Source of the DNA: Nitrospinaceae bacterium
GTDB taxonomy: Bacteria; Nitrospinota; Nitrospinia; Nitrospinales; VA-1
Length of the DNA stretch: 42,450 nt
Assembly (NCBI GenBank): GCA_029261695.1
Contig: JAJDAV010000038.1
Location: 1 to 42,450, forward strand
Reading direction: 5' to 3'
This document shows positions 4,824 to 15,005 of this stretch, in pieces (the stretch's first letter is position 1; each line of letters starts with the position of its first letter). The position numbers and the translations under genes are program-made. Under the pieces are notes generated by a model. The model was not told the DNA's origin. It saw only the letters and a list, made by a program, of their open reading frames with translations, and ran no database searches.

Positions 4824-4838
4824 GGAGACTATAGAAAA

Positions 4839-6011
4839 ATGCATGGAGTAACAGATTCCATTGAATTTCAGATGAGCCTTTTGCTTTTTACAGCACTTGG
4901 AGGTTATCAAATTGCAGCTAGGATTGCTCAACCTGCTGTTGTCGGAGTCATGTTGGCCGGCATAGTTATCGGCCCCAGTGTTCTAGGTTGGGTGATGTAC
5001 ACCGACTTTGTAAAAAGCATTGCTCACTTGGGAGCTATTATTCTTCTCTTTGTTATTGGATTAGAGTTTAAGTTAAAAACAATCAGCAACTGGAGATATG
5101 GCGTTATCGGGCTTTTTGGGGTTTTAGTCCCTTGGATATGCGGGTATCTTCTTGCTCAATATTTTGGGTTCGAACCTAAAAAAGCCATCATAGTTGGAGT
5201 CGCTCTAACTGCCACGAGCATTGCAATTACTGCCGATGTATTTCGAGAAATGGGAAAGCTTAAGACTGAAGCGGCTAAGGCAATCATTGGTGCTGCGATC
5301 ATTGATGATGTTTTGGCACTTTTGGCCCTCGCCGTTTCTCAACAAATGGCGTCATCAACAATATCAGGTGGTCTCATAATTATGATGGTGATTAAGGCCG
5401 TTATATTCCTTGCCGCCGGAGCTTATTTTGGGCGAGTATTTATTTCTAAATTTGTTGCAAAAATGAGTGCTTCGAATAAATCCACTCAATTCCCGGAGTT
5501 TCTATTTATTTTCACCATGATGATGGCCTTCTTTTATGCCATGTGCGCAGAATTGATGGGCCTTTCTGCCATTGTGGGAGCTTTTGTGGCTGGCGTGTCT
5601 TTTGAGGGTGTTACCCCAAAAATTCGCAAGCATCTTAAAATAGGAACTGAACACCTAAGAATAATTTTTGGATCTATCTTTTTCATTTCATTGGGAATTT
5701 TAGCAGACGTGAAAGCCTTTACCTTTGACACAATTGGGTTTTTATTGGCATTAACGGTAACAGCGATACTGACAAAACTAATCGGTTGTGGGCTTCCTGC
5801 CAAACTATTGGGCATGAACAACCAAAATTCTTTCGTTGTAGGTTTGGGTATGGTTCCTCGCGGTGAGGTGGCGATGATCATTGCACTCCTTGCTCTCAAT
5901 GAAAAAATTATTGAACAACCCATTTACGTCGCACTAGTGATGATGAGTTTGCTGGCAACTTTGATTGTCCCTCTTATTCTTAAAAATTGGGTTTATGCCA
6001 AAGAACAATGA
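4839..6011 (+). CDS. Kef/CPA2-type cation:proton antiporter
   Basis: Inner-membrane sodium/potassium:proton exchanger of the CPA2 family. The 390 residues form roughly 12-13 membrane helices, with the family's unwound-helix region (ALTATSIAIT, about 126-135) and the following IIGAAIIDDVLALL segment, whose paired aspartates are the expected ion and proton site. There is no C-terminal RCK/TrkA-N domain, so this is a membrane-only form rather than full-length KefB/KefC. GGAG precedes the ATG. The 3' end overlaps the next gene by 17 bases. Substrate ion cannot be told from sequence. Confidence 0.88.
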   Translation: MHGVTDSIEFQMSLLLFTALGGYQIAARIAQPAVVGVMLAGIVIGPSVLGWVMYTDFVKSIAHLGAIILLFVIGLEFKLKTISNWRYGVIGLFGVLVPWICGYLLAQYFGFEPKKAIIVGVALTATSIAITADVFREMGKLKTEAAKAIIGAAIIDDVLALLALAVSQQMASSTISGGLIIMMVIKAVIFLAAGAYFGRVFISKFVAKMSASNKSTQFPEFLFIFTMMMAFFYAMCAELMGLSAIVGAFVAGVSFEGVTPKIRKHLKIGTEHLRIIFGSIFFISLGILADVKAFTFDTIGFLLALTVTAILTKLIGCGLPAKLLGMNNQNSFVVGLGMVPRGEVAMIIALLALNEKIIEQPIYVALVMMSLLATLIVPLILKNWVYAKEQ

Positions 6012-8524: not shown

Positions 8525-9574
8525 TTAATTAGATGTATTCATTTTTTTATCATGTATCATGAGCCATACTTTCGCCCGATCCTGAGCATTGGTAATTAGT
8601 TCAGGAGTCATTTTTTCTTCGATCAGATCTCTTTTAATTATTGCATCCTTATGCCCATTTGCCCCTGCAATGTTCCACCATTTGTGGGCTTCAATATAAT
8701 CTTTTTCTACGCCCTGCCCCGTAACATATCTATTCCCCAAATTGTATTGCGCACTGGCATATCCCTGCTCTGCTGCCGCTCGAAACAATTTTACAGCTTC
8801 TTGATAATCCTTAATAACTCCTCCATTACCCTTTAAATATATCAACCCGAGATTGTTCAGTGCTACTTTATATCTTTGGGCCGCCGATTTTCTAAACCAT
8901 TTAATCGCCTCTCTGTAGTCTTGTGTTACTCCATAACCATTCAAATACATCAATCCGAGATTATTCTGAGCCACAGCATGCCCTTGTTCGGCCGATAACC
9001 TGTACCATTTCTCGGCCTCCGGGTAGGCTTTAACGTTTTCCTTATTATCATCGTAAATATATCCGAGACTAAATTGAGCTTCGGCATATCCCTGTTTCGC
9101 CGAAAGTTTGTACCAATGTATTGCTTCCTTGAAATTTTTCCTGACTCCTTTACCGTGGTAATACATCGACCCTAAAAGAAACTGCGCCTTTGCATTTCCC
9201 TGTTCCACAGCCAATTCATACCATTTGATCGCTTTTTTATAATCTTGATTAACCCCTGAACCAAGGTCATACATTGAGCCAAGAAATACCTGAGCCAAAA
9301 CATTACCCTGCTTAGCCGACTTCAAGAGCCATTTGATTGCTTCATCGTAGTCCGGGTCTTCTTCGTTACTGTAAATTACTCCAAGGCTATATTGAGCCTG
9401 ATCATTACCTTGCTTGGCAAATGGCTTCAGTTTTTCCAATGCAGTGATGTAATCACCACGCTTAAAAGCACTTATTCCATCGTGATAGCTATCTGCAAAC
9501 GCAGGTAATGTCAAAAGCAGCATTCCAAGAACTACAGGAATAATCTGCTTACATTGTTTAATGACTCTTCTCAT
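8525..9574 (-). CDS. Sel1-like repeat protein, exported
   Basis: Probably periplasmic or surface-anchored scaffold of about eight Sel1-like (SLR) repeats, each near 36 residues with the AQxxLGxxYxxGxGVxxDYxxAxxWxxxAAxQG pattern. From the ATG at 9574 the protein has 349 residues, beginning MRRVIKQCKQ and a hydrophobic stretch ending LPAFADS, a convincing signal peptide. An upstream start at 9643 would add 23 residues in front of that signal and overlap the cytochrome gene, so it is not chosen. Repeats run to about residue 325 and a short helical tail follows. It lies 29 bases downstream of cytochrome gene B on the same strand and may be co-transcribed. SLR proteins mediate protein contacts; the partner here is unknown. 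Confidence 0.82.
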   Translation of the reverse strand: MRRVIKQCKQIIPVVLGMLLLTLPAFADSYHDGISAFKRGDYITALEKLKPFAKQGNDQAQYSLGVIYSNEEDPDYDEAIKWLLKSAKQGNVLAQVFLGSMYDLGSGVNQDYKKAIKWYELAVEQGNAKAQFLLGSMYYHGKGVRKNFKEAIHWYKLSAKQGYAEAQFSLGYIYDDNKENVKAYPEAEKWYRLSAEQGHAVAQNNLGLMYLNGYGVTQDYREAIKWFRKSAAQRYKVALNNLGLIYLKGNGGVIKDYQEAVKLFRAAAEQGYASAQYNLGNRYVTGQGVEKDYIEAHKWWNIAGANGHKDAIIKRDLIEEKMTPELITNAQDRAKVWLMIHDKKMNTSN

Positions 9575-9603
9575 AATTTGGTAGCTACAGGAATTTCTGA
9601 AAG

Positions 9604-10047
9604 CTATTTTGCAAATTTTCTTAGATAGGATACAACTTGCCAAGTCTGATTATCGTCAAGAGCCGCAAAACCCATCATGCCAGTTCCTTTAGATCCGTTC
9701 CTGATTATCCAAAACAGTTGACCGTCTGGAATATCTTCCATCATGGCCAAGCACGAAAAGTCCCTCGGTTTTGGATTCATCCCTTTTGCCATGGCTCCAT
9801 CCCCCCGACCTTTCATTCCATGACATTGAACGCAAGCCAATGGTTTTGCATCCTTTTGATAAAGCTTTTCGCCTGCGGCAATGGTTTCAGGCGATGAACC
9901 AAGAGGATTAATTTTTTTGTAATTGCTATCAGGCGCTTGAGGAGTTGTTCTTTTTTGAACGCAATCTTCAGCTAAAGAAACGGACACATTGAAGAATAAA
10001 GACAAGACCACGACAACCACCAAAAATAACCTGTTTAGAAAATTCAT
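9604..10047 (-). CDS. Periplasmic monohaem cytochrome c (copy B)
   Basis: Small exported class I cytochrome c, a likely periplasmic electron carrier. From 10047 it has 147 residues: a signal peptide to about residue 26 (ending SLAED), then haem-binding CVQCH, the following GMKGRGDGAMAKGMNPKPRDF, and a candidate axial Met in GTGMMGF before the C-terminal helix VVSYLRKFAK. The start is set by a strong AGGAGGG ribosome site at 10051-10057. An in-frame ATG at 10068 lies before that site and is rejected. A decayed relative lies at 11203-11490, and just upstream is a remnant of cytochrome A. No oxidase or reductase gene is nearby to name the redox partner. Confidence 0.9.
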   Translation of the reverse strand: MNFLNRLFLVVVVVLSLFFNVSVSLAEDCVQKRTTPQAPDSNYKKINPLGSSPETIAAGEKLYQKDAKPLACVQCHGMKGRGDGAMAKGMNPKPRDFSCLAMMEDIPDGQLFWIIRNGSKGTGMMGFAALDDNQTWQVVSYLRKFAK

Positions 10048-10050
10048 ATT

Positions 10051-10057
10051 CCCTCCT
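10051..10057 (-). promoter_or_regulatory. Shine-Dalgarno AGGAGGG of cytochrome B
   Basis: Read on the minus strand, AGGAGGG lies three to four bases before the ATG at 10047. It is the strongest ribosome site I noticed in the window and decides the start of cytochrome B over the in-frame ATG at 10068. Confidence 0.7.
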
Positions 10058-10080
10058 GAGATGATCAAAAAAATAATTTT

Positions 10081-10208
10081 TTACTTCACACACTTATTCA
10101 TTCTTAAAACGAGGTAGGCAATGCTTCTGGGAAATCTTTATACTCATTATAAGAAGTAAAGCCTGTTAGAATAAAAAAATACAAGAAATACCCGCAAAAT
10201 TTTTCAAA
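10081..10208 (-). pseudogene. Cytochrome A remnant with internal deletion
   Basis: Read on the minus strand from about 10208, this stretch encodes FFILTGFTSYNEYKDFPE and LPTS, matching the first about 35 residues of cytochrome A (FFIASGFANYKEYKSFPE and TPTS) without gaps. At 10104-10106 it hits a stop. In another frame it then continues VLRMNKCVK and a stop at 10081-10083, matching the last residues of A (ALRINNCIK and stop); 23 of 30 bases agree there. The middle of the gene, about 170 codons including the haem site, is missing. The start codon is no longer clear. It ends 33 bases before the ATG of cytochrome B, much as gene A ends 37 bases before the B-like pseudogene. It cannot make a cytochrome. 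Confidence 0.8.
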
Positions 10209-10356
10209 AAATTATTATAAGATTTAGGATTTAAAAAAACGCATTCAAAATGCTGTTTTCTTTTACTATTAATGCTCCTTATACTATTAGACTGTAGACT
10301 TAGCATTAAAAGTCACAAAATTAAAAATTCATATAAACATTACTCATGAAAATACC

Positions 10357-11073
10357 ATGCCAATCAAAAACTTAGCCAATGCTAAGCTTACGAATTCCAA
10401 TTTTCAGGGGCAAGACTTTAATAAGGCCGACCTAAGAAATGCGGATTTAAGCGGATCAAATTTAAGGGGCGCGAGCCTGAAAGAAGCTAACCTCACTGAT
10501 GCGAAATTGAGGCGAGCGGATTTAAGCGGAGCAGATTTGAATAACGCGATGTTATACAAAGCCGATCTCTCTGAAGCTGACCTTAGTGGCGCAGATTTGA
10601 CTCATGCTAATTTAAGGGAAGTTAAATTAATTGAAACCAACTTGAGCAGTGCCAATTTGAATCGATCGAAAATTACAGGAGCTAACTTAAAGCAGGCGAA
10701 TTTAAGACGCTCAAGCTTGAGAGCTGTTAACTTAAGAGGTTCAACTCTTCCAGAGGCCGATCTATCCGAATCTGATTTTTCAGGGATACTTCAAAAAATC
10801 CCGAAAAAATATGAAATATCTGATCTAAGCGGAACAAATTTGACCAATGCAAAACTCATTAATGCAAAAATGCAGAGAGTCGATCTCAGCGGAGCCGACC
10901 TGATCGGGACAAACTTGAGCGGTGCCGATTTAAGACAGGCTAATTTGAGCGGTGCCGATTTGAAAGGTGCAATCCTTAAAGGTGCAAAGCTTAAAGGAAC
11001 GGATTTGCGAAAGGCCAATTTGGAGGGAGTAAAGTTAACTTTTCTTCAAAAATGGTTTGCAATAATTGATTAG
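10357..11073 (+). CDS. Pentapeptide-repeat protein
   Basis: Right-handed quadrilateral beta-helix protein of 238 residues built almost wholly of A(D/N)LxX pentapeptides. By direct count there are 28 uninterrupted repeats (residues 5-144, seven full coils), an 11-residue break (LQKIPKKYEIS), then 14 repeats (156-225) and a 13-residue tail. There is no signal peptide or membrane segment, so it is probably cytosolic. Some proteins of this shape mimic DNA and bind gyrase (Qnr, MfpA), but the break, lack of a distinctive loop pattern and context do not support naming it so. It is the only plus-strand gene between the two duplicated cytochrome units. No strong ribosome site is seen before the ATG. 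Confidence 0.85.
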   Translation: MPIKNLANAKLTNSNFQGQDFNKADLRNADLSGSNLRGASLKEANLTDAKLRRADLSGADLNNAMLYKADLSEADLSGADLTHANLREVKLIETNLSSANLNRSKITGANLKQANLRRSSLRAVNLRGSTLPEADLSESDFSGILQKIPKKYEISDLSGTNLTNAKLINAKMQRVDLSGADLIGTNLSGADLRQANLSGADLKGAILKGAKLKGTDLRKANLEGVKLTFLQKWFAIID

Positions 11074-11160
11074 TCGCCATCCCCAACCAAAACTCCAAGC
11101 AAAACTACGTTCACGGATTAAAAAAAACTTTACACCACAAAATCCAATTCCAGCTAAGAC

Positions 11161-11181
11161 AAAAAAGCTTCTATCGAAGCT
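11161..11181 (-). terminator. Intrinsic terminator of the decayed cytochrome unit
   Basis: AGCTTC (11166-11171), a four-base loop, and GAAGCT (11176-11181) form a perfect six-pair stem. On the minus strand it is followed at once by a run of T (complement of the A run from 11161). It lies about 20 bases past the last stop of the B-like pseudogene, in the right place to end that old transcript. The stem has few GC pairs, so strength is uncertain. Confidence 0.6.
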
Positions 11182-11202
11182 AAATAGGAACAGATCATAC
11201 CC

Positions 11203-11490
11203 CTACAGTAAGAGTGACGGCCTTAATTCTTTTACCATCAGACCATCCCCTTTGCCTTTAATGCCTTGGCATTGAACGCAAGCCAACGGTTTTGCATCCT
11301 TTTGATAAAGTTTTTTTCAAGCAAGAACAACCCCAGAGTTCTCCCCCAGCGAATTCGTTGGTTTTAGTATTTTTTCGCGTGCTTGAAGGGTTGACCTTTC
11401 CTGTCTGCAATCTTCTGCCAGTACAAATGTAGAGATTTAAGTTAAAAGGAAGAAATGATTAAAATATATAAAGCCACTAAAAATTTTCAT
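11203..11490 (-). pseudogene. Decayed paralogue of cytochrome B
   Basis: Read on the minus strand from an ATG at 11488-11490, a hydrophobic leader and AEDC begin as in cytochrome B. The leader holds a TAA at about codon 18, and a TGA replaces the Gly codon before KLYQ. Beyond this the match is nearly exact: KKLYQKDAKPLACVQCQG against GEKLYQKDAKPLACVQCHG in B. The distance from AEDC to KLYQ is 31 codons in both. The haem-ligand His of CxxCH is Gln here. The C-terminal half, including the axial Met region, is gone: after MVKELRP comes a short unrelated tail and TAG. Two nonsense codons, a lost haem ligand and truncation show that it is not functional. Confidence 0.9.
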
Positions 11491-11527
11491 CCCTTCTACT
11501 TTCCATACAATTCTCGACAGCTGAAAA

Positions 11528-12172
11528 TCACTTTATGCAATTATTTATTCTTAAAGCGATAATAGCCAAATATTCCTTTTTGTTTTCGGTTGTTTTTGTA
11601 AGCATCACATGCACACGAGCCAATTTGGAATTTTTTTCATTAAAAATTTTACGCATAGCCGTAAAATCGGGTGTCAAAGTAATTTCCCCTGCCTTCAAGC
11701 TTGCCGAAAATAATTTAGGCTTATCCTTTTCAACATTAATTTGCCCTCCTATATCAATATTTTCCAATGAAACCACTTGGGGGATATTTAAACAGGTGCT
11801 TATCGTAATGTAATTTTCCGTCAAGAAAGAACGAACATAAGAAATCACATCATCAATTTGTTTGTCATTCAGGTTAAATGCAGGCATCCCCGTAAAAGGA
11901 ATCCCATCTTTAATAGCTGTATACATACTTTGATAAGGCACACCTTTCATCTCTTTAAAGGAAGTAAAGTTTCTAGGCTTAGGCTCCAAACCTTGTGCCA
12001 AGAAACCATCTCCAACGCCACTATGACCATGGCACATTGGACATCCCATTTCTTGATAAATCAAGTGTCCCTTTGAAGTAGGGGTGGGTTCGGGAAAACT
12101 TTTATATTCTTTATAATTGGCGAATCCTGATGCGATAAAAAACGAAACTAGAATAATGGTAATTTTTTTCAT
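11528..12172 (-). CDS. Cytochrome c with C-terminal extension (copy A)
   Basis: Exported monohaem cytochrome c of 214 residues. A signal peptide covers about residues 1-18 (ending SGFAN). The haem domain has CPMCH, followed by GHSGVGDGFLAQGLEPKPRNF and a candidate axial Met in PFTGMPAF, with helix VISYVRSFL. It shares the GDGxxAxGxxPKPR(N/D)F segment with cytochrome B, so the two are related. After about residue 125 there is an extra, mainly beta-like region of some 85 residues that I do not recognise, with two further single cysteines. It lies downstream of the sigma-54 activator gene on the same strand, with a gap of about 190 bases. A remnant of a second copy lies at 10081-10208. Confidence 0.88.
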   Translation of the reverse strand: MKKITIILVSFFIASGFANYKEYKSFPEPTPTSKGHLIYQEMGCPMCHGHSGVGDGFLAQGLEPKPRNFTSFKEMKGVPYQSMYTAIKDGIPFTGMPAFNLNDKQIDDVISYVRSFLTENYITISTCLNIPQVVSLENIDIGGQINVEKDKPKLFSASLKAGEITLTPDFTAMRKIFNEKNSKLARVHVMLTKTTENKKEYLAIIALRINNCIK

Positions 12173-12364: not shown

Positions 12365-13741
12365 TTATGTCTGCGAGCTAGTTTCCCCGTATTCGTTGAG
12401 TTTATTGCGAAGGGTGCGGATGCTGATGCCTAAGGAATCGGCAGCTTTTGTTTTGTTGCCATTGACTTCTTCCAATGTCTGCATGATAAGCTCTTTTTCC
12501 ATTTCATAAATGGTTCCCGACAATCGCGGAGCGGATTTATCTTTCGATTGCAGTTCTTCATCGAAAAACAAATGCGTTGGCAACATTGTGTCGCCCTGAC
12601 ACATCAGACAGGAACGCTCTACAATATTCCCCAATTCACGTATGTTTCCCGGCCAACGATATTTTTTAAGTAGGCTCAGCGTTGCTGAATCTATATTTAT
12701 AGGAGATTTACCATTCTCCTCGCAAAACTGTTTGGCAAAATTTTCCACGAGAACTGGAATATCATCGATTCTCTCTCGCAATGGAATCAGGTTTAAGGGA
12801 ACCACATTCAATCGGTAATACAAGTCTTCACGAAACTCCTGATCATGTATGCGCTTTCGAATATCGCGATTGCTGGTAGCGATCACCCGCACATCTACTG
12901 GGATGGGTGCCCTTCCACCAATCTTATCGACCTCATGCTCTTGCAAAACCCGAAGAAGCTTAGCTTGCAGAGGCATAGACATCTCTGTCACTTCATCCAA
13001 CAACAATGAGCTGCTATTGGCAAGTTCAAACTTACCTTCCTTGCTTTCTGTTGCTCCTGTGAACGACCCTTTTTCATGGCCAAACAATTCTGACTCAAGC
13101 AAACCTTCGGGCAATGCTGCGCAGTTTACAGCCATAAAAGGCTTCTCGGACCGTGGACTACATTGATGAATATATCTTGCAAATAATTCTTTCCCCGTTC
13201 CAGTTTCTCCCATGATGAGCACAGTGGATTTGCTGAACGCCACGTTTTCGGCAAATTGCAGCAGCTTTTTCATCTCCTCATTTTGGGTAACGATTCTTTT
13301 CATCTCCCCCAATGATTCGGTTTGTGTAGAAGGACGAGGTGTTGCAGGAATAAAGCTACCGGGGTCTAGAAACGCTCGCTTAACGGTTGAAACTAATACA
13401 TCCGCTGAAAACCCGGAGCCTTTGATTAAATAATCAAACGCCCCTTCCTTCATAGCTTCAACAGCGTTATCTATTGTTCCATATGCTGTCATAACCACTA
13501 CCTGGGTTTTTGGAGATTTCTCTTTCACCGCACGTAGTAATTCCAAGCCATTCAATTTTGGCATACGAACATCGGTTAGAACCAAGTCGAAACTTCCATC
13601 TTCCAATTTTCCTAATGCCTGCTGCCCGTCTTCAGCCAAAGTGAGCTGGTAATTTTCTCTTTTCAGCGTGGTCTCTAATGCCACCCGCATTTCGGACTCG
13701 TCATCAACAATTAGAATTTTTTTGGATGCATTATTTTTCAT
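12365..13741 (-). CDS. Sigma-54-dependent response regulator, FleR/FlrC-like
   Basis: NtrC-type transcription activator. From the ATG at 13741 it has 458 residues: a receiver domain with phospho-acceptor Asp about 57 (LVLTDVRMPK), an AAA+ sigma-54 interaction domain with Walker A GETGTGKE, the sigma-54 contact motif in the GSFTGA form, and Walker B LLLDEV, then a Fis-type helix-turn-helix (GNKTKAADSLGISIRTLRNKL). In the receiver the invariant Lys is followed by GSGF instead of the usual PF. The start at 13741 is preferred to 13753, which has no spaced ribosome site; either start overlaps the kinase gene. The receiver and its partner kinase resemble flagellar FlrC/FleR, but no flagellar genes are in the window to confirm this. 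Confidence 0.9.
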   Translation of the reverse strand: MKNNASKKILIVDDESEMRVALETTLKRENYQLTLAEDGQQALGKLEDGSFDLVLTDVRMPKLNGLELLRAVKEKSPKTQVVVMTAYGTIDNAVEAMKEGAFDYLIKGSGFSADVLVSTVKRAFLDPGSFIPATPRPSTQTESLGEMKRIVTQNEEMKKLLQFAENVAFSKSTVLIMGETGTGKELFARYIHQCSPRSEKPFMAVNCAALPEGLLESELFGHEKGSFTGATESKEGKFELANSSSLLLDEVTEMSMPLQAKLLRVLQEHEVDKIGGRAPIPVDVRVIATSNRDIRKRIHDQEFREDLYYRLNVVPLNLIPLRERIDDIPVLVENFAKQFCEENGKSPINIDSATLSLLKKYRWPGNIRELGNIVERSCLMCQGDTMLPTHLFFDEELQSKDKSAPRLSGTIYEMEKELIMQTLEEVNGNKTKAADSLGISIRTLRNKLNEYGETSSQT

Positions 13742-15005
13742 CGAAATTCTCATCCCAACTGGGAATTTTTACTGTAAAAGAAGTTCCCTTCCCCTCTTCA
13801 CTCACTGCATCTATTGTTCCCTGATGCGCTTTAATTATATTGTGGGATATGGCCAAACCGAGCCCTGTACCCTTATCTTTTGTAGTGAAAAAAGGATTAA
13901 ATATTTTTGCAAGATTATCCGCAGACATCCCCACACCATTATCTGCAACTGTAACAGAAATATACTGACGAGTTGCAGATCCTTTTTCTGGACTTTGGTT
14001 GGGGACAGATGATTTTTGAGTGATAAGGCTTAACTCTCCTCCATCTGGCATCGCCTGGATTGCATTATTGATAAGATTTGGAAATACCTGGCGCAATAGT
14101 TCTCTGTCCCCATTCGCCAATAAAGTGCCCTGTCCTGATTTTCGAATCACTTTAATATTTTCTGGAACACGAGCATTACCGATTCCCTCCAAGCATTCGG
14201 TCAGCAACTGGTTAATATCACACTGCTGGCGAGAGGGTTGCGCGGATTTTGCAAACAATAGCAAAGTTGAAATGATGCGATCCATATTCTGCACACCTGC
14301 TCGGATATGCTGCACCAGATTTTCTTTTTCAGTATCTCCTTCTAAATCTTTTTTGAGCAGTGAAGCGAACAGCTCAATACTTCCTAAAGGATTTCTTATT
14401 TCATGGGCGATGCCTGCGGCCATTTCTCCCATTTCTCGTAATCTTTGATTTCGCTGGGCAAGTTCTTCCATTTTGCGGAATTCAGTCATATCCTGCAAAA
14501 TTAATATAGTACCGATCTGCCCACCGTGATTATCCCACACTGGAGATGCAGAGACACGAACGTGCAGGGTCCCCCCATTCGCGCTGGGAATATCCTTGTC
14601 TTGGCTTATAGTTTCGCCACGGTTTTTTCCCAACCTTGCGACTACTGGTTCAAATAATGGAAACACTTCATTTAAAGTTTTCCCCAAACAACCTTGAGGT
14701 TTTATGCCGGTTAAAACTCCAGCGGTTTTATTATAGGTGGTAATAATTCCTGCCCGATCTACGACGATAACTCCGTTGGTTTGACTTTCTAATATATCGT
14801 TCAGGTAATTTTTTACCCGTTCCTTTTCCGCCAGGTTTTTTTCAAGCTCATCATTTTTATCGGAAAGCTCCAGATCTAGCTGTTTGACTCTTCCTTGAAG
14901 CTCATCATAAGAATTTTGCAACTGCGCGGTGACTTCGTTAAAAGCCTCCATATTCTGAATGAGTGTTTGGATTTCTTTACTTTTGTCGCCGCCAGGGTTT
15001 GTCAT
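13731..15005 (-). CDS. PAS sensor histidine kinase, FleS/FlrB-like
   Basis: Two-component sensor kinase of 424 residues with no membrane segment, so cytosolic. An N-terminal coiled coil (about 15-65) leads into a PAS domain (about 68-180), then a HisKA domain with the phosphorylated His near 201 (AAGIAHEIRNPLGS) and an HATPase domain with N box NLINNAIQAMPDGG, G1 DNGVGM and G2 GTGLGLAI. The coiled coil plus PAS layout, with NSYDELQGRVKQLDLEL, resembles the FlrB/FleS kinases that phosphorylate FlrC/FleR. The response regulator gene overlaps its 3' end, and the TPR gene is 49 bases upstream, giving a likely three-gene transcript. Confidence 0.9.
   Translation of the reverse strand: MTNPGGDKSKEIQTLIQNMEAFNEVTAQLQNSYDELQGRVKQLDLELSDKNDELEKNLAEKERVKNYLNDILESQTNGVIVVDRAGIITTYNKTAGVLTGIKPQGCLGKTLNEVFPLFEPVVARLGKNRGETISQDKDIPSANGGTLHVRVSASPVWDNHGGQIGTILILQDMTEFRKMEELAQRNQRLREMGEMAAGIAHEIRNPLGSIELFASLLKKDLEGDTEKENLVQHIRAGVQNMDRIISTLLLFAKSAQPSRQQCDINQLLTECLEGIGNARVPENIKVIRKSGQGTLLANGDRELLRQVFPNLINNAIQAMPDGGELSLITQKSSVPNQSPEKGSATRQYISVTVADNGVGMSADNLAKIFNPFFTTKDKGTGLGLAISHNIIKAHQGTIDAVSEEGKGTSFTVKIPSWDENFDEK

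Follow-up and report, generated by a model that had tools for sequence, protein, structure and literature searches.

The cytochrome genes described here probably derive from two adjoining two-gene cassettes, each of which has lost a different gene. They lie in a window of 42,450 nucleotides, the whole stretch of DNA that was analysed, which is contig C38 of a Nitrospinaceae genome (3.07 Mb in 220 contigs, about 89% complete). Read along the minus strand, A comes first in intact form (11528-12172), followed by a broken B (11203-11490), a broken A (10081-10207) and finally an intact B (9604-10047). The spacer from the A stop to the start of broken B is 37 bp (11491-11527). That from the broken A stop to the start of B is 33 bp (10048-10080) and carries an AGGAGG ribosome-binding site at 10052-10057. 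A first-pass annotation of the window had described these four pieces, the two spacer lengths and the loss of a different gene from each copy, and all three descriptions hold: the spacers are read directly from the sequence, the remnants match A and B above shuffled sequences, and each broken gene carries its own set of lesions. Given two A-to-B adjacencies, near-equal spacers and opposite losses, two former A-B cassettes are the simplest account. The locus would formerly have held two complete cassettes, each coding for two small exported monoheme cytochromes c. In the first, B was lost to stops, a missing heme histidine and truncation. In the second, A has a changed start codon, a slip of the frame and an internal deletion of ~0.5 kb that joins its two ends out of frame. 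As a different gene was affected in each cassette, an A and a B in working order would be left, 1.5 kb apart.

Gene A encodes an exported monoheme cytochrome c of 214 amino acids with the heme motif CPMCH. It matches PF00034 over residues 34-115 (E 2e-10, 42.3 bits, cut-off 21.3), and is followed by a C-terminal extension of ~95 residues without a Pfam match. Named homologs of the protein come from Nitrospinaceae and Nitrospina metagenome-assembled genomes. The closest A, in the sister species (genome G008), is 84% identical over the full length, and the changes between the two fall 24/10/70 at codon positions 1/2/3. This bias toward third positions implies that intact A is being maintained. 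Gene B encodes an exported monoheme cytochrome c of 147 amino acids with the heme motif CVQCH, also matches PF00034 (E 1e-11, 46.4 bits, cut-off 21.3), and is 60-68% identical to its best homologs in the family. Signal peptides are apparent by eye in both proteins. With one CxxCH-bearing domain each, above curated Pfam cut-offs, both are assigned to the class I cytochromes c; neither meets an NCBIfam equivalog. Downstream of B on the same strand is a gene for a Sel1-repeat protein (8525-9643), whose annotated start codon, TTG, lies in an overlap with the end of B. This protein has no close homolog in the genus, the best match being 50%.

Broken B holds the frame of B over about 90 codons. Read in that frame from ATG to TAG, it gives MKIFSGFIYFNHFFLLT, ISTFVLAEDCRQERSTLQAREKILKPTNSLGENSGVVLA and KKLYQKDAKPLACVQCQGIKGKGDGLMVKELRPSLLL, each ending in a stop. 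Two of these stops are internal, the heme motif has changed from CVQCH to CVQCQ, with glutamine in place of the heme-ligand histidine, and the last third of B is absent. The alignment to B is gap-free from residue 25 on, and over residues 25-92 a tblastn search of a small database gives 57% identity with E 6e-21. The local alignment scores 147, and shuffled sequences reached 41 at most.

In broken A, the beginning of the gene runs into its last codons in a different frame. In the N-terminal part (10111-10207), which was identified by alignment to A, TTG replaces the ATG of A and is followed by a frame slip within a run of T, after which the remnant reads GFTSYNEYKDFPEALPTS where A has GFANYKEYKSFPEPTPTS. 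This part then runs straight into TTAAGAATGAATAAGTGTGTGAAGTAA, which reads LRMNKCVK and a stop (10081-10107), compared with LRINNCIK and a stop in A. Since the two pieces are in different frames, ~0.5 kb has been lost from the middle of the gene. The N-terminal part together with the leader (10208-10356) scores 70 against A, a value matched by one of 1000 shuffles, and 100 against the A of the sister species, which none of the shuffles matched. The terminal word scores 34, where A's own end scores 44 and the best chance word scores 18 in a background of 2566 stop-ended nine-residue words from the six frames of the window. This remnant demonstrates that B was once preceded, at a distance of 33 bp, by an A gene that had an end of its own, which strengthens the case for two cassettes.

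The assembly is in 220 pieces and the genome is rich in cytochrome c genes (26-28 matches), and it could be argued that the decay is unrelated: that the remnants reflect chance similarity, other cytochrome paralogs or an assembly artefact. This is very improbable. The matches are specific to A and B, lie far above shuffles, and fall in the right order and at the right spacing; moreover, the copies differ in sequence, so neither repeat collapse nor a chimera made from one repeat can produce them.

The sequences preceding the two A copies are less alike than was first thought. The leader of broken A is similar to the noncoding sequence that precedes A in the sister species (score 40, matched by 5 of 500 shuffles), and the leader of intact A resembles neither. 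An upstream similarity between A and broken A, noted earlier as a GATTT/TTTAAAAAAA stretch, scores 29 where the shuffle mean is 33.6, and is not upheld. Scans for promoters and terminators gave as many hits in shuffled sequences as in the real one; a terminator-like hairpin downstream of broken B is among these hits. The survivors would presumably each be expressed from their own former leader.

Between the copies, and convergent with broken B, lies a gene on the plus strand (10357-11073) for a pentapeptide-repeat protein of 238 amino acids (PF00805, E 7e-71). It is one of many such genes in the genome and was absent from the first-pass description. Its position between the copies is unexplained and counts against the two-cassette explanation. 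B is likewise followed by a convergent pentapeptide gene in G025 (L072, 5329-5757) and in G066 (L111, 1985-3352). The ends of those two genes match each other and not the gene in the window. The idea that such a gene was ancestrally next to B was rejected on account of this mismatch and of the pentapeptide hits, at least 64 in each of the two genomes, which make coincidence possible.

The divergence of the copies bears on how the cassettes arose. A simple tandem duplication of the operon that took place recently within the host species would account for tandem copies with the same order and similar spacers, and an 85-bp stretch at the heme site of broken B is indeed nearest to B (70 of 85 positions; other homologs share 65 or fewer). 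However, B and broken B have diverged at 37 of 68 third codon positions, a level within the 31-42 of 68 found between B and its homologs from other genomes of the family. This divergence equals that seen between genera, and a simple recent tandem duplication is therefore not supported. For comparison, 70 of 215 third positions differ between A and the A of the sister species. A also shares fewer bases with broken A (114 of 191) than with the sister's A (145 of 198), and the unlike leaders of A and broken A again speak against a recent event. In a tree of A leaders and ends, A groups with the A of the sister species (support 88/91), leaving broken A outside, and forcing A and broken A together is 7.4 log units worse, which is borderline (AU p 0.059). 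The B tree, used for dating, gave no resolution. A recent duplication is judged unlikely from these comparisons. The divergence of the cassettes is indicated, not proven, to predate the split of the host species from its sister, as dead genes evolve faster, third positions saturate and the alignments are very short. Of the tandem A-B duplication put forward in the first-pass annotation, the two adjoining cassettes and their reciprocal loss stand; a simple recent event does not fit well with the divergence, the borderline A tree, the intervening pentapeptide gene, and the occurrence of A alone in the closest relatives.

The cassettes are probably old copies, or one of them came from outside. 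The latter case is a form of the two-cassette explanation and is covered by the same probability: a diverged A-B cassette would have arrived from a different lineage of Nitrospinaceae beside the resident one, and reciprocal decay would have followed. This is possible but is not the favoured form of the explanation. It would suit the between-genus distance of the two B copies, the rearranged surroundings, and the patchy occurrence of close A genes, which are found in 2 of 9 genus members. In addition, A is nearest to that of the sister species, yet B is not nearest to the B genes of genus mates and is slightly closer to genus g8. Against this, no donor cassette was found, old duplication with losses gives equal divergence, the B tree is unresolved, and the base composition of the cytochrome stretch shows nothing unusual. 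The idea that the surviving A and B come from cassettes of different origin, one resident and one acquired, and so form a mixed electron-carrier pair through reciprocal loss, can be offered tentatively at most.

Surroundings were compared across relatives, with 46 genomes of the family surveyed. An NtrC-type regulator borders A in the window, and other genes follow this regulator in two genus mates, whose downstream sides were read well or in part; the stretch is therefore rearranged, either in the genome of the window or in those of these genus mates. In the sister species the homolog of the regulator at 12365-13753 is followed by formate-tetrahydrofolate-ligase-like and flagellar genes with no cytochromes (L090), a break in synteny. 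Upstream of A in the sister species (L066, upstream of 9180) there is a tRNA gene whose anticodon, as read by eye, is CAT; it is a possible insertion point. B homologs elsewhere lie beside GroEL- and GlgC-like open reading frames in two genus mates (by eye), and one adjoins a DUF4405 gene in G025. The antiporter gene at 4824-6008 was considered as a link to G024 and rejected, as other genes intervene there (RimK-like and desuccinylase-like open reading frames, by eye). Its best matches are in genomes without A-B at that place, and it was not counted as a synteny link.

In support of the two-cassette explanation, five further genomes of the order contain an A-like gene paired with a B-like one, making the two-gene cassette a known arrangement. 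G024 is the one genome in which B directly follows an A-like gene, a distant A, and the reverse order, B and then an A-like gene, is found in G038, G051, G023 and G036. This pairing of cytochrome types recurs, with varying order and neighbours. A and B do adjoin in relatives, as the first-pass reading required, but always with a distant A-like gene. The close A homologs (84, 67, 61 and 59% identity) have no B neighbour, although G022 and G018 lie near contig ends with the downstream side partly seen. None of the 46 family genomes was found to have two cassettes or a close A adjoining B, which counts against the explanation, as do the solitary A of the closest relatives, the lack of resolution in the B tree and the borderline A-tree test. 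In G048 two A-like cytochrome genes (L098, 4445-5116 and 6426-7205) lie on the same strand, 1.3 kb apart, and form a further pair of neighbours in this family.

From their domains and relatives, A and B are most likely small periplasmic electron carriers, whose likeliest role is to work as a pair. The biology involves nothing beyond ordinary duplication, or else acquisition, followed by decay in a genome rich in cytochromes, and points to no new system. The locus alone adds little to cytochrome biology. Its interest is that both dead genes are recognisable, making it a readable intermediate in which a two-gene bacterial unit was split and neither function would have been lost. The survivors should also be treated with caution as partners, as they may not be the original ones. 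In the literature that was searched, nothing relevant described a pair of pseudogenes like this one in Nitrospinaceae before.

Among known systems, the best solved match of both proteins is a two-domain cytochrome, the redox partner in a joint structure with an HAO-like protein (PDB 6h5l chain B), which we take to be the Kuenenia kustc0458/kustc0457 pair. A matches best to the first domain of this chain (E 1.8e-13) and B to the second (E 6e-17). The Kuenenia redox partner carries its two domains in one protein, whereas two separate monoheme genes are present here. No multiheme gene is found among the open reading frames around the cytochromes in the window, and hence no octaheme HAO-like neighbour. 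Co-elution of the HAO and its redox partner, kustc0458/kustc0457, is described in Kuenenia (PMC11897245). Distant A-like genes adjoin a multiheme gene only in G040, G041 and G043, that of G043 being an octaheme, HAO/IhOCC-like one. In these three genomes (L026, L025 and L024, respectively) the multiheme HAO/IhOCC-like gene flanks the A-like cytochromes together with one for a carboxypeptidase-regulatory-like protein, forming a small module that recurs in the order. Like the class I cytochromes c (PF00034 Cytochrom_C, PF13442 Cytochrome_CBB3), both A and B contain a single domain of this kind, and A differs by its C-terminal extension. Reciprocal loss in duplicated bacterial operons is the closest parallel for the locus as a whole. 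The copies here are probably old rather than recent and have a pentapeptide-repeat gene between them, but the locus shares with such operons adjacent copies, opposite losses and one working set.
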